Origin: Phycisphaerae bacterium
GTDB taxonomy: Bacteria > Planctomycetota > Phycisphaerae > Sedimentisphaerales > Anaerobacaceae
Assembly: GCA_030601845.1 (NCBI GenBank)
Contig: JAUWAY010000009.1
Span: 1-64,000 of the forward strand
Reading direction: 5' to 3'
Length of the DNA stretch: 64,000 nt
The notes under the pieces were generated by a model that was given only the letters and a program-made list of their open reading frames with translations, was not told the DNA's origin and did not search any database. The position numbers were made by a program, and so were the translations under genes. Below, in pieces: positions 3,212 to 45,272 of the stretch (its first letter is position 1; each line of letters begins with the position of its first letter).

Positions 3212-4282
3212 ATGAGCGAAGGTAAATTAAAAACCGCGGTACTTGGCCTGAACGACAAGGGCCGGCTTCTGCTCGAAGCGGCATCACAAAGTGAGCATTT
3301 TCAGATTGAGGCTGTTGCCGACAAAGACGGCAAGCTCGCCGAAAGCGTCGCTACGGAATATCAGTGTGCAGCTTTCGACGATTACCGGCAGTTGATAATA
3401 GCGATGGATTCCCGCCTGCGCGGAGACAGCCGCTGTCTGCTGATTGCCGCCGGCATATATAGTTGTGAGAAGCAAATCCGGGCGGCGATGAAGAAGAAAT
3501 TCAACATACTCAAATTGGCTCCGGCGGCGAGGAATTTTGAAGAAGCCGCAGAATTTGTCCGCCTTGCCGAAGATGAAAATGTAAAATTTGCCGTTGCCAA
3601 TCCCAGCCGCTTTGCCCAGGCCTTTCTTGCTTTGCGACAGTTCCTGCAGGAAGGCCGGATTGAGCAAATCTTCCTGATAACTGCCGTCTGTGCCGTTGGT
3701 CAACAGCAGCACGCTGCCTGGCAGACCGACCCTGAACTCGCCGGCGGAGGTGTGCTGCTGCGTAACTGTTACCAAATAATCGACCAGATAGTGTGGAACT
3801 TTGCGATGCCACAGCAGGTTTATTCATTAAATACAAACCAGGCGGGCGATAGACAGCAGCGGCAATATCTGACGGAAGATACGGCGGTTGTAACGGTGAA
3901 ATTCACCGATACTTTTATCGCAAATCTGATTGTGAGCAGGGCTTTCGGGCCCGAACAGGAATTTCTGAAGGTCTACGGCAAAGACAAAATCCTAACGGTC
4001 AGTAACACCAGATTTACCGTCAGCGACGCTCTTGGGCGAGTCAGCGAGGAATTGGAATACGATGACGACCAGCTTTGCCGGTACAGGGCCCTGCTGAAAA
4101 ACTTTGCTCTGAGTATTGTATCGCCCGATAAAAACAAGCTTTGCAGCAGCGCCAGGGAGAATCTGCGGGATATGGCGGTCATTGAGTCGGCTTATCTTTC
4201 AGCGCGGACGGGCATGCCTGAGCAGCCCGGGCGAATTCTGGAGATGGCATCGGCGCGTTCCGGCAAGACAATAAACATTTGA
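3212..4282 (+). CDS. Gfo/Idh/MocA-family oxidoreductase
   Basis: 356 aa; N-terminal Rossmann-like 'KTAVLGLNDKGRLLLEAASQSEHFQIEAVADKDGKLAESVATEYQCAAFDDY' and Gfo/Idh/MocA organisation. Confidence 0.75.
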   Translation: MSEGKLKTAVLGLNDKGRLLLEAASQSEHFQIEAVADKDGKLAESVATEYQCAAFDDYRQLIIAMDSRLRGDSRCLLIAAGIYSCEKQIRAAMKKKFNILKLAPAARNFEEAAEFVRLAEDENVKFAVANPSRFAQAFLALRQFLQEGRIEQIFLITAVCAVGQQQHAAWQTDPELAGGGVLLRNCYQIIDQIVWNFAMPQQVYSLNTNQAGDRQQRQYLTEDTAVVTVKFTDTFIANLIVSRAFGPEQEFLKVYGKDKILTVSNTRFTVSDALGRVSEELEYDDDQLCRYRALLKNFALSIVSPDKNKLCSSARENLRDMAVIESAYLSARTGMPEQPGRILEMASARSGKTINI

Positions 4283-5258: not shown

Positions 5259-6074
5259 TTAGTCGGCTTCATTATCTATTAAGTGTTCCAGGACGGCACT
5301 GCGATAGTCTTGTCTTCCGATTTTCAAACCTTCGAGGTTACGGTACCTTGTTTGAATTCTTGCCCTCAAATATGCTATACGGTTTTGAGGGTCTGGGTGT
5401 GTTGAAAGAAATTCGATTGGCCTAACTTTGTGCTCCTCTTGCAGTATTTGCTGAATCTCAACCGCACCGTAAGGGTTGTAGCCGGCCCAGACCATATAAT
5501 CCAGGCCTGCCAAATCAGCTTCCCGCTCATCTTTTTTGCTGTATTGAAGGCCCATAATTTGTCTCGTGAGGTCGGCTGCGGTAAAAACACCCCGTGACGT
5601 TTTTGCAGAAGCTACGGCAGAGAGTAAAACTCCTATTCCAATATTCCGGCTCATAGCTGCTGAGCTGTCTCTTGCGACGACGTGCGATATCTCGTGTGCC
5701 AGTATCGCGGCGAGCTGCGCCTCGGTCGTCAATTTTTCCAGCATACCCTTTGTGATAAAGACGTATCCGCCCGGCAGAGCAAGAGCATTAATGGATTTAT
5801 GGTTCAGTGCCGTGAAGTGATATTGCCAATCGGGCCTGTGGCTGACGCGGGTGATTTTTTGGCCGACGCTGTCAATGTAGTTTTGTAATCTCTCATCGGC
5901 GATTCTGCCGTCCAATTGCTTTTCAACTTCAGGGGCATATTTTTCGCCTATTTCAATATCCTGCTCCTGTGGAAAAAGCATGAACTCTTCCTGGCCGGTT
6001 ATAGGATTGACCGCACAGCCGGGACACAGGCAAAAGATAAGGCATAATATCAGTAACTGTAATTTTTTAGACAT
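5259..6074 (-). CDS. M48-family metalloprotease, lipoprotein
   Basis: Signal peptide/lipobox 'LILCLIFCLCPGC', 'HEISHVVARD' (HExxH) and 'EREADLAGLDYMVWAGY'. Confidence 0.88.
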   Translation of the reverse strand: MSKKLQLLILCLIFCLCPGCAVNPITGQEEFMLFPQEQDIEIGEKYAPEVEKQLDGRIADERLQNYIDSVGQKITRVSHRPDWQYHFTALNHKSINALALPGGYVFITKGMLEKLTTEAQLAAILAHEISHVVARDSSAAMSRNIGIGVLLSAVASAKTSRGVFTAADLTRQIMGLQYSKKDEREADLAGLDYMVWAGYNPYGAVEIQQILQEEHKVRPIEFLSTHPDPQNRIAYLRARIQTRYRNLEGLKIGRQDYRSAVLEHLIDNEAD

Positions 6075-6458: not shown

Positions 6459-6655
6459 TCTTAGGAGCTTGAAAGTATTAGCCCGGATTTGGCCCGAGTT
6501 ATTTGGGAAATCTCGGTTGAAAGTGAGCCAGCCAATGTTAGGATATATGAGGCAGAAGGTAGGGCAATCTCGAAATTCGAACCGAATTCGAATGACCAAA
6601 ATATAAAATTCAAAACCAATTAAGCCACAGAGGACACGGAGAAGAATAAAAGGAA

Positions 6656-6681
6656 TATAGATTCCTGCTTGCGCAGGAATG
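6656..6681. repeat. REP-like palindrome 'GATTCCTGCTTGCGCAGGAATGAC'
   Basis: Imperfect palindrome; near-identical copy at 33831-33851. Confidence 0.6.
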
Positions 6682-6706
6682 ACAAAGGGAATATCGAACA
6701 AGAAGT

Positions 6707-8080
6707 ATGAGAATTGTTACTAAAGGCAGGTTAAGTTTTCGTGGTGGGGTGCATCCGCCTGGTAGCAAAGAGCTTACCGTCGGCAGCGAGATACAGGGGG
6801 GCCCTGCTGTCAAGCAAGTGGCAATAATGCTGAGCCAGCATATTGGTGCAGTTTGCCGGCCGTTAGTTGAAAAAGGTGGTGCGGTTCAGGCGGGGCAAAA
6901 AATCGGCGACAGCGATGCGTTCGTTTCGGCGCCCGTTCATTCGCCCATTAACGGGAAGGTGAAAGAGATGGGGCTTCGTTCTCACGCGGTTCTTGGCCGA
7001 AGCCCGGCGGTGGTAATAGAGGCGGAGACTGAGGCCGCGACGAAGCAGCCTTCGTGGGAATTGAACGGCGATTTCGATGAAAGCAAGTATTCGTCGGAGC
7101 AGATATGCGAAGCGGTGCGTCAGGCGGGTATTGTCGGTATGGGCGGGGCGGGGTTCCCGACGAGGGTGAAGATAGAGCCAAATCCGCGACTGCCCAAAGA
7201 GACCCTAATCATCAACGGATGTGAATGCGAGCCGTATATCACATGCGACTACCGGATTATGCTCGAATGGACGAAGCAGATTATTGCGGGGACCAAACTT
7301 GCCCGAAAGGCATCGGGCTGTTCGAGAATCCTAATCGGCATTGAAGATAACAAGCCCGAAGCGATAGAGGTTATGAACGCAGCGCTGCAGCAATCTGCAA
7401 ACACCGATGCCATCAAAATTGTGCCGGTCAAGACAAAATATCCACAGGGTGGTGAAAGGCAACTTATAAAAGCGATACTAAAAAGAGATGTTCCCACAGG
7501 GGGGATTCCGCCAATGATCGGGGTGGTGGTGCTTAACGTTGCCACTGTTGCAGCGATTGCCGAGGCGGTAGTTTATGATTCGCCGCTGACGCACAGGGTT
7601 GTAACCGTTACCGGAGAAGCAATCGCCAATCCGGGCAATTACTACGTCTCGATAGGAACATCAGTTGCAGACTTAATAGAATTTTGCGGAGGGGTAACCA
7701 AAAAATCCGCGAAAGTCATTGTTGGCGGACCAATGATGGGAATAGCGATTGCCGATTTAGCAACACCTATCACGAAAACTACCGGCGCTATAACTGTTTT
7801 GACAAAAGAACAAATCGGCAGGGCCAAATTCGAGAGGCGTCAAACGGCCTGTATTCGCTGCGGCAGATGCCTGGAAGTTTGTCCTGAATATTTGAATGCG
7901 ACGAAAATCGCTCATGCGGTAAAAAATAATCTTCTGGATGTGGCGGAAAGCTATTATATCAGTGCTTGTATGGAGTGCGGCTGCTGCAGCTACGTCTGCC
8001 CGGCCAATATAGAACTGACGGGATATATCAAGACAGGCAAGATTTTTCTTGCAAGGCAGAAAGGGGAAATGCCTCAATAA
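6707..8080 (+). CDS. rnfC: Rnf electron transport complex subunit C
   Basis: 'FRGGVHPPGSKELT', 'GMGGAGFPTRVKI', 'NGCECEPYITCDYR', two 4Fe-4S motifs 'CIRCGRCLEVCP' and 'CMECGCCSYVCP'. Confidence 0.95.
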   Translation: MRIVTKGRLSFRGGVHPPGSKELTVGSEIQGGPAVKQVAIMLSQHIGAVCRPLVEKGGAVQAGQKIGDSDAFVSAPVHSPINGKVKEMGLRSHAVLGRSPAVVIEAETEAATKQPSWELNGDFDESKYSSEQICEAVRQAGIVGMGGAGFPTRVKIEPNPRLPKETLIINGCECEPYITCDYRIMLEWTKQIIAGTKLARKASGCSRILIGIEDNKPEAIEVMNAALQQSANTDAIKIVPVKTKYPQGGERQLIKAILKRDVPTGGIPPMIGVVVLNVATVAAIAEAVVYDSPLTHRVVTVTGEAIANPGNYYVSIGTSVADLIEFCGGVTKKSAKVIVGGPMMGIAIADLATPITKTTGAITVLTKEQIGRAKFERRQTACIRCGRCLEVCPEYLNATKIAHAVKNNLLDVAESYYISACMECGCCSYVCPANIELTGYIKTGKIFLARQKGEMPQ

Positions 8081-43305: not shown

Positions 43306-44652
43306 ATGTCAGCCGAAACAAACAACAGATTTGAAACAATCTGCGAAAAGATAAAGAGTTTTCCGACCGGGCCTGGCCTGTATTTTATGAAGGCCTCGGC
43401 CGATAAGGTCCTCTATATTGGCAAGGCCAAAAATCTTCGCTCCCGAGTTGCCAGCTATTTTCAGCAAGGCGGCCCCAATCTGGTAGTTTCACGCGGTCCG
43501 AAAATTGCTGAAATGATAAACAAGGTCAAAACCGTTGATTTCCTGGAGACTTCAAACGAAGTCGATGCAATACTTCAGGAAGCCCGCCTGATTAAGGACA
43601 TCCGTCCGCCCTATAATACGGACCTTGTCGATGACAAAACCTTTCCGTATCTGGAAATTACCGCCGGCGAAGATTTCCCGGGCGTCTATATCACCCGAAA
43701 ACCCCGTCCTCGCGGCAGCAGATTGTTCGGGCCGTTTGCCGGCGCAAAGGACCTGCGGGCCGTTTTGGTGGTGTTGCAAAAGATATTCAAATTTCGCACC
43801 TGCGGACTGAATATCCGCGAAGCAGACCTGAAACGCAAATTCTTCCGCCCCTGTCTCTTGTACAGTATAAAGCAGTGCACCGCCCCCTGTGCAGCCAAAA
43901 TTGGCAAAATCGAGTATAAGAAAATTGTCAAAGACCTTATAAAATTTTTGCGTTCGAAGCGTTCGGTCATCCTTCGTCAGTTGAAGAAGCAAATGGCCGA
44001 GGCATCTGAAACCCTTGAATATGAGAAAGCTGTGATGTTTCGCGACCGTATTCGGCTAATTGAACGGCTCGACCGCCGGGGCACGCCCGACGAGAACGTC
44101 CAGCCGGAGGTCTTCGCCGGCGACCCTGCCGAAGCCCTGGGCAAATTGCAAAACCTGTTGCAAGCCGACCAGCCGGTCAGGATTATCGAGGGCATCGACG
44201 TTGCCGAAATCGGCGGCGCCGAAGCGGTTGGCTCATTGGTTAAATTCATTGACGGAAGGCCGTTTAAGAGCGGTTATCGGCGGTTCAAAATAAAAACCGT
44301 AAAGGGTATCGACGACTACGCTATGATTGCTGAAGTCGTCAAACGCAGATATAAATATGCGCTGGCTGGTGAAGAGCTCTGGCCCGACCTTGTCCTGATT
44401 GACGGCGGCCTGGGCCATCTGCACGCCGCTGAAAATGCGTTTAGAGAAATGAAGGCACCGGTTCCGAGAATCGCTTCAATTGCCAAAAAAGAGGAACAGA
44501 TTTACCTGCAGGGCACTTCTAAGCCCTTGAAGCTGCCTGCCCATTCGCCCGTGCTCAAGCTGCTGCAATACGTCCGGGACGAGGCCCACCGCTTCGCCCA
44601 GCACTACCACCACATCCTGCGCAGTAAAAAAATGCTGAACAAAAAACCCTAA
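43306..44652 (+). CDS. uvrC: Excinuclease ABC subunit C (short form without HhH domain)
   Basis: GIY-YIG 'GPGLYFMKASADKVLYIGKAKNLRSRVASYFQ', UVR motif, RNase H-like endonuclease 'DLVLIDGGLGHLHAAENAF'; ends right after 'RDEAHRFAQHYHHILRSKKM'. Confidence 0.93.
   Translation: MSAETNNRFETICEKIKSFPTGPGLYFMKASADKVLYIGKAKNLRSRVASYFQQGGPNLVVSRGPKIAEMINKVKTVDFLETSNEVDAILQEARLIKDIRPPYNTDLVDDKTFPYLEITAGEDFPGVYITRKPRPRGSRLFGPFAGAKDLRAVLVVLQKIFKFRTCGLNIREADLKRKFFRPCLLYSIKQCTAPCAAKIGKIEYKKIVKDLIKFLRSKRSVILRQLKKQMAEASETLEYEKAVMFRDRIRLIERLDRRGTPDENVQPEVFAGDPAEALGKLQNLLQADQPVRIIEGIDVAEIGGAEAVGSLVKFIDGRPFKSGYRRFKIKTVKGIDDYAMIAEVVKRRYKYALAGEELWPDLVLIDGGLGHLHAAENAFREMKAPVPRIASIAKKEEQIYLQGTSKPLKLPAHSPVLKLLQYVRDEAHRFAQHYHHILRSKKMLNKKP
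44593..44652 (+). repeat. uvrC 3'-end repeat, copy 1 (functional uvrC tail)
   Basis: First 27 nt 'ttcgcccagcactaccaccacatcctg' identical to 45213-45239; encodes FAQHYHHILRSKKMLNKKP*. Confidence 0.92.
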
Positions 44653-44727
44653 AAAAAAGTAAATATGCCAATGGTGCCTTGACATCAATATGTTTTAATG
44701 CTATAATGTTGGTAGTGAGGTGATAAT

Positions 44728-44961
44728 ATGAAAACCAATACAAAAAGAACAACAATTTACCTGGATTCCGACCTGCACCAAGCATTACGGATAAAAGCAG
44801 CAGAAACGGAACATTCGATGTCAGAATTGGTTGGCGAGGCGATTAAGCTTTCTTTGGCAGAGGATTCATCTGATTTGGCGGCCTTTGAGCAGCGCAAAGC
44901 CGAGCCAAGTCTGGCATTTGGGGATGTTTTGAAGCAGCTAAAGAAAAATGGCAAAATATGA
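44728..44961 (+). CDS. Ribbon-helix-helix antitoxin
   Basis: 'KRTTIYLDSDLHQALRIKAAETEHSMSELVGEAIKLSL'. Confidence 0.85.
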   Translation: MKTNTKRTTIYLDSDLHQALRIKAAETEHSMSELVGEAIKLSLAEDSSDLAAFEQRKAEPSLAFGDVLKQLKKNGKI

Positions 44962-45208
44962 AATAACCATAAAAAAATCTGCTGCGAAAGAGCTGGAAGG
45001 AATCCCCAAAAAAGACCTTCGAACAATAGTGAAATGCATCCAATCGCTTGCCCAAAATCCAAGATCTCGCGGCTCACAGAAGCTTTCAGCGCAGGAGCGT
45101 TACAGAATTCGGCAGGAAGATTACAGAATAGTTTATTTTATCGATGATAAGGAGTTGATAGTCGACATAGTCAAAATCGGCCATAGGCGAGAAATTTATC
45201 GTTCCTGA
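44948..45208 (+). CDS. RelE/ParE-family toxin
   Basis: 'YEITIKKSAAKELEGIPKKDLRTIVKCIQSLAQNPRSRGSQKLSAQERYRIRQEDYRIVYFIDDKELIVDIVKIGHRREIY'. Confidence 0.92.
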   Translation: MAKYEITIKKSAAKELEGIPKKDLRTIVKCIQSLAQNPRSRGSQKLSAQERYRIRQEDYRIVYFIDDKELIVDIVKIGHRREIYRS

Positions 45209-45212
45209 CTAA

Positions 45213-45272
45213 TTCGCCCAGCACTACCACCACATCCTGAGAACCCAAAAAATGATAGGCAAAAAATCCTGA
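45213..45272 (+). pseudogene. Displaced uvrC 3' end (copy 2)
   Basis: ttcgcccagcactaccaccacatcctgagaacccaaaaaatgataggcaaaaaatcctga, reads FAQHYHHILRTQKMIGKKS*; same length, frame and stop position as the uvrC tail. Confidence 0.88.

Follow-up and report, generated by a model that had tools for sequence, protein, structure and literature searches.

Restriction-modification systems have reportedly been found inserted with long target duplication, in work said to go back to Nobusato in 2000 and Furuta in 2010. Insertion of this kind is documented for such systems (PMC3874152). In Escherichia coli, one-sided homology to the lacZ 3' end led mostly to insertions flanked by end duplications of 109–950 bp, which arose through circularisation and a single crossover (PMC3240628). 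A model in which gene ends are displaced step by step from an anchor has been put forward for effector-immunity arrays of the T6SS and for Rhs loci (PMC5361080).

At the 3' end of uvrC, in the window (the whole stretch of 64,000 nucleotides that was analysed) and in related genomes of uncultured planctomycetes, inserts are flanked by direct duplications of tens to hundreds of bp and carry no transposase, the pattern by which insertion with long target duplication is recognised. As in the restriction-modification insertions, a small addiction-type module comes with duplications of variable length, about 100 bp in order of magnitude, and no known mobile element is linked to it; unlike there, one gene end shows the pattern repeatedly, the cargos include non-addictive genes besides toxin-antitoxin (TA) pairs, and the gene-adjacent uvrC tail appears to be a different allele. 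Homology-facilitated illegitimate recombination (HFIR) and single-crossover integration likewise place foreign DNA between duplicated gene 3' ends (PMC3240628), although classical HFIR usually deletes whereas the uvrC inserts carry duplications, and in contrast to the E. coli laboratory construct (PMC3240628) the uvrC case is natural, probably ancient and between genera. The likeness to the T6SS and Rhs arrays (PMC5361080) lies in a module that is anchored in conserved upstream sequence and replaces the 3' end, with old ends and small genes piling up downstream; there, however, the effector's own toxic domain is replaced, while uvrC, a DNA-repair gene without functional tie to the cargo, has a short C-terminal tail replaced. 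Finally, as with islands targeting tRNA or tmRNA genes, the gene end is restored and the original end is moved to the far side, but the uvrC inserts differ from those islands in that no integrase was found in them and in having no fixed core, variable edges and tiny, unrelated cargos.

The features of the locus in the window are collected in Table 1. The original prediction held that the end of uvrC recurs 620 bp downstream with only a TA pair between the copies, and this was confirmed for the last 58–60 nt of the gene: a repeat search returned 44593–44650 and 45213–45270 as a direct repeat of 58 nt with 83% identity and a start-to-start distance of 620, and self-BLAST matched the two tails with an E value of 2e-9. 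Positions 44593–44619 and 45213–45239 are identical (27/27 nt) and the remainder of the tails has diverged, so that the tail attached to the TA pair is indeed unlike the displaced one, while both tails share the same frame and stop at an equivalent codon (TAA proximal, TGA distal). The further expectations that the insert lies at the uvrC 3' end with the gene kept open at full length, and that the original tail was displaced and survives as a distal relic, likewise agree with the structure. A chance repeat was excluded, as 27 identical nt in a row within 64 kb far exceed what chance would give and the architecture recurs in other genomes; a second uvrC paralogue was excluded, as the genome itself gives one UvrC match and the query matches one place; and an assembly artefact was excluded, as the copies differ by 3–20% across independent assemblies.

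Table 1. Positions of the uvrC gene, the inserted TA pair and the duplicated uvrC end within the window
Feature	Positions	Strand	Remarks
uvrC	43306..44652	+	448 aa, intact; GIY-YIG, UVR and RNase H-like domains (Pfam/NCBIfam)
Proximal uvrC tail, FAQHYHHILRSKKMLNKKP and stop	44593..44652	+	identical core at 44593-44619
Promoter in TA leader, TTGACA-17-TATAAT	44679..44707	+	12/12 consensus, sigma-70-type
RHH-type antitoxin	44728..44961	+	77 aa; PF20605/PF01402 just below gathering score
RelE/ParE-superfamily toxin	44948..45208	+	86 aa; PF05016, 50.7 bits (cut-off 23)
Junction of cargo and displaced tail, CTAA	45209..45212	+	immediately 3' of toxin stop
Displaced (distal) uvrC tail copy, FAQHYHHILRTQKMIGKKS and stop	45213..45272	+	begins 4 nt past toxin stop; no uvrC body attached

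The RNase H domain of UvrC was recognised by Pfam with an E value of 9e-46, the NCBIfam uvrC profile scored above its cut-off, and the RNase H-like domain reaches residue 431 of 448. A profile search detected no C-terminal HhH domain in this short, 448-aa protein, and short uvrC ends were also apparent in most of the fetched Phycisphaerae loci. Between the tails, the antitoxin and toxin reading frames overlap by 14 nt, and the nearest solved relatives of the toxin in the PDB include RelE toxins. An RHH reading frame that runs into the gene of a ParE/RelE-fold toxin within a single operon is the architecture of a type II TA system, and the pair is predicted to be one on that basis. The -35/-10-like leader is partly kept in homologous TA cassettes; in another genome (G034) the TA leader resembles a uvrC tail end, which is suggestive only. 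No integrase lies between the tails in the window, where the insert carries the RHH and toxin genes only, as had been claimed.

The family search covered 89 genomes and provided about 75 uvrC loci together with the DNA downstream of them. A displaced uvrC end behind an insert was present in 9 of these loci, with differing cargos. In the window the cargo is the RHH antitoxin with the RelE/ParE toxin, and the same pair is found in G070 and G071, which belong to one genus different from that of the window; the displaced tails of the window and G071 are 96% identical over 53 nt. In G031, a DUF2283-containing gene pair is followed by the tail and then by a ParE-type pair, while the cargo is a CNNM-domain gene in G028, an alpha/beta hydrolase in G097, and one gene without family assignment in G099. 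G098 carries a large DUF362-like gene (assigned by eye) and a beta-helix gene with an 813-bp repeat, part of which is formed by a local paralogous beta-helix gene, and in G022 the genome's own uvrC tail is followed by 3.7 kb of inserted DNA, in which a GFO/IDH/MocA oxidoreductase is encoded, and then by an LNKKS tail fused to the TA pair known from the window. Judged by cargo, at least 6 or 7 distinct events have taken place at uvrC. A displaced-type uvrC tail was also seen at a contig edge in G012, and two more loci came from named genomes: L197, and L263 (JAJDDE010000125.1) from a distant member of the Phycisphaerales outside the family, in which a 111-bp duplication of the uvrC end (78% identity) surrounds a 145-aa gene. 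By contrast, none of 40 uvrC loci in other families of the same order had a displaced uvrC end (Fisher p 0.026). The same TA pair stands directly behind uvrC without a second tail in G004 and G072. Pattern matches in G031 (C47), G034 (C143) and G106 (C263) were rejected, as they are not uvrC tails.

An orphan uvrC 3' end was observed on another contig of G090 (C189, locus L036, 1200–1389). It measures 190 bp, is 95% identical to the genome's own uvrC, ends at the stop and adjoins an unrelated 681-aa gene downstream. The unit is flanked by 54-bp direct repeats, and to either side of it are fragments of reading frames that, judged by eye, resemble a REP-associated transposase.

Two of the loci are layered. 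L197 holds a two-generation array. Its uvrC ends in MIGDK and is followed by a TA pair of the window family, then by a uvrC tail of 39 nt that terminates in MLKKKS, and finally by a stump of a window-type toxin gene, comprising its final ~43 nt and matching the window toxin end at 95% identity. In G022, the LNKKS tail fused to the TA pair lies 3.8 kb from uvrC. Both arrangements are most simply read as a later insertion that drove an older tail-plus-TA unit outward.

The edges of the duplications vary widely, from -12 to -111 on the left and from -19 to +771 on the right, relative to the uvrC stop, which makes them unlike the product of a site-specific recombinase. Their lengths are 58 bp in the window, roughly 50–150 bp in most other loci and 813 bp in G098; the duplications in G097 and G098 hold 41 nt of the uvrC tail or less, and the repeats run past the stop in G031 and G097–G099. 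The right edge falls at or near the stop codon in the window, G028, G022, L263 and the cytochrome gene of G091 described below, and these cases could hint at something more precise. Within the tails, identity switches abruptly: besides the divergence after the 27-nt core in the window, the tails of G070 are 95% identical over -107 to -19 and dissimilar thereafter. In G070 and G071, the tails within each genome are more alike over the upstream part than are their counterparts between the genomes, the cargo junction being common to both, a pattern that suggests gene conversion between the tails.

The tail alleles agreed only in part with the original prediction. MIG-type tails, expected on uninterrupted alleles, do occur on uvrC in G072 and L197, but both of these carry a TA pair; LNKKS-type tails, expected at other insertions, are fused to the TA pair of the window in G004, G070, G071 and the distal unit of G022, but LNKK is the commonest uvrC tail in relatives without the TA pair and is thus not specific to the cassette. 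G072 has kept the TA pair behind its MIG-type tail while a displaced tail is absent, and its TA groups with those of G070 and G071 in the TA tree. G004 and G068 differ in the TA, and their downstream DNA is 98% identical; G004 lacks a second tail, and the polarity of the change is uncertain. A breakpoint in the body of uvrC was sought between these two sister genomes, where identity falls in the last ~50 nt, but a further dip at -340 to -290 makes this signal weak.

Bias towards uvrC was assessed with a uniform test, in which the last 80 nt of every reading frame of at least 120 aa were compared with the same locus; fetched loci totalling about 600 kb served to estimate the genome-wide rate of displaced ends. 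Displaced tails were found for 7 of 70 uvrC ends versus 1 of 362 other gene ends (Fisher p 1.6e-5, with related genomes counted as independent). Left out of the count were internal protein repeats, the G098 beta-helix repeat (which belongs to the uvrC case there) and a pair of 72% identity in G011; counting this pair as an other-gene case gives p 6e-5. The single clear non-uvrC case concerns a URO-D-like gene (by eye) in G071 (L054), whose 3' end is duplicated as a 69-bp repeat (1311–1379 and 4104–4172 relative to the uvrC end) around a two-gene insert of 2.7 kb; G072 provides the empty site. For the insert in the window, no relative near enough to supply such an empty site was found. In G090 (L143) and G091 (L142), a related TA pair lies between duplicates of a multihaem cytochrome gene's 3' end, the repeat in L142 spanning 2261–2649 and 3302–3690 (389 bp, 96%) and starting at the stop codon. 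Gene 5' ends are also open to duplication, as seen in G067 (L051), where a 102-bp repeat (93%; 5550–5651 and 6646–6747 relative to the uvrC end) covers the 5' end of a ligA-like gene around a metallo-beta-lactamase-like gene (both by eye). The process is thus general, yet strongly biased to uvrC.

A homology-anchored insertion of a donor uvrC end with its adjacent genes is the probable, if far from certain, origin of the scar at the uvrC locus. A DNA fragment from a relative, comprising its uvrC 3' end and the small TA operon behind it, would cross over with the recipient uvrC inside the highly conserved segment encoding RDEAHRFAQHYHHIL, and its other end would be joined without homology. We infer two candidate routes for the fragment: circularisation followed by one crossover (Campbell-type, and then presumably RecA-dependent), or homology-facilitated illegitimate recombination. 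In the product, uvrC would carry ~10 borrowed codons at its end and be followed by the TA pair, the recipient's old tail, presumably the distal copy, and the native downstream DNA. As the crossover would restore an open, full-length uvrC, the insertion would be tolerated; if the TA pair is active and addictive, its loss would be counter-selected once in place, and later rounds at the same address would drive older tails and cassettes outward.

Several of the patterns above argue for such an anchored insertion. The recurrence around unrelated cargos and the bias towards uvrC speak for it, the differing edges fit random fragment ends, the abrupt identity switch within the tails supports an anchored crossover, and the layered arrays of L197 and G022 support it as well, while G004 and G072, with the TA pair directly behind uvrC and no second tail, could act as donors. 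A possible explanation for the preference is that UvrC ends soon after its RNase H-like domain, so that a highly conserved stretch lies within ~100 nt of the stop; a homology anchor combined with selection for an intact gene would account for the recurrence at uvrC better than site targeting does. The divergence switch and the tail types agree as to donor-type and recipient-type ends, although the assignment of alleles to donor and recipient is uncertain, and the frequency of the LNKKS tail in TA-free relatives counts against the anchor. Among the fetched loci, no two alleles were related closely enough as donor and recipient to reveal the crossover itself. The TA pairs next to uvrC may share one ancestral insertion, in which case the window event would be old and common to relatives.

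A process without any anchor, which we consider unlikely though deserving of some weight, is template switching during replication (MMBIR/FoSTeS-like) or another insertion with long target duplication, in which a fork would leave at the uvrC stop, copy foreign DNA and return upstream, so that both tails would be the recipient's. The like duplications at the URO-D-like gene (69 bp, G071), the cytochrome gene (up to 389 bp, G090/G091) and the ligA 5' end (102 bp, G067) would fit this account, as would the several repeats that pass the stop; it does not, however, predict the strong bias to uvrC or the abrupt change in divergence within the tails.

Improbable in our view is site-specific integration in which a tyrosine recombinase would act in trans on the 27-nt core as an attachment site, after the manner of the tRNA and tmRNA islands. 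The common core at a gene 3' end, the restored gene and five Phage_integrase-domain matches elsewhere in the genome could be cited for it, but the edges vary as described and the short stretches of tail in the G097 and G098 duplications do not suit a fixed site. The cargos share no element backbone, a scan of cargo proteins at other loci gave no integrase or recombinase, the uvrC core was absent from the viral contigs searched, and the window unit was absent from the plasmids and phages searched. The original proposal that the cassette targets its site as tRNA islands do is not upheld, since the edges vary, the cargos are unrelated and no recombinase was found to travel along. Very improbable is a tandem duplication of uvrC, or of its tail and a neighbour, followed by deletion, which would also yield a tail-cargo-tail order and could draw on the local beta-helix paralogue in the G098 repeat, but no scanned locus holds a tandem duplication or a neighbouring second uvrC (findings that the original prediction had named as contrary to it), no displaced copy behind uvrC reaches further than about -111, and the cargos are for the most part not copies of local genes.

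Homology-anchored insertion can be extended to a bolder and rather unlikely proposal, namely that units of a tail and a small cargo are recombinase-free mobile cassettes, which might excise by recombination between tails, travel as circles or fragments and re-enter via the uvrC end; uvrC would then be a growing, integron-like array run by host homologous recombination.

A literature search, with most subscription journals outside its reach, returned no paper joining uvrC, toxin-antitoxin systems and an integration site. The process resembles known ones, and the repeated use of the uvrC end, with leftovers of successive rounds, appears to be undescribed. It is an open question by what route TA pairs and other small modules travel when no transposase or integrase goes with them. 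Here one gene end has been hit repeatedly by unrelated inserts, the scars have been kept, and empty and occupied relatives are at hand, which makes the anchor idea, and with it the possibility that a conserved gene end may predict insertion hotspots, testable both from sequence and at the bench.
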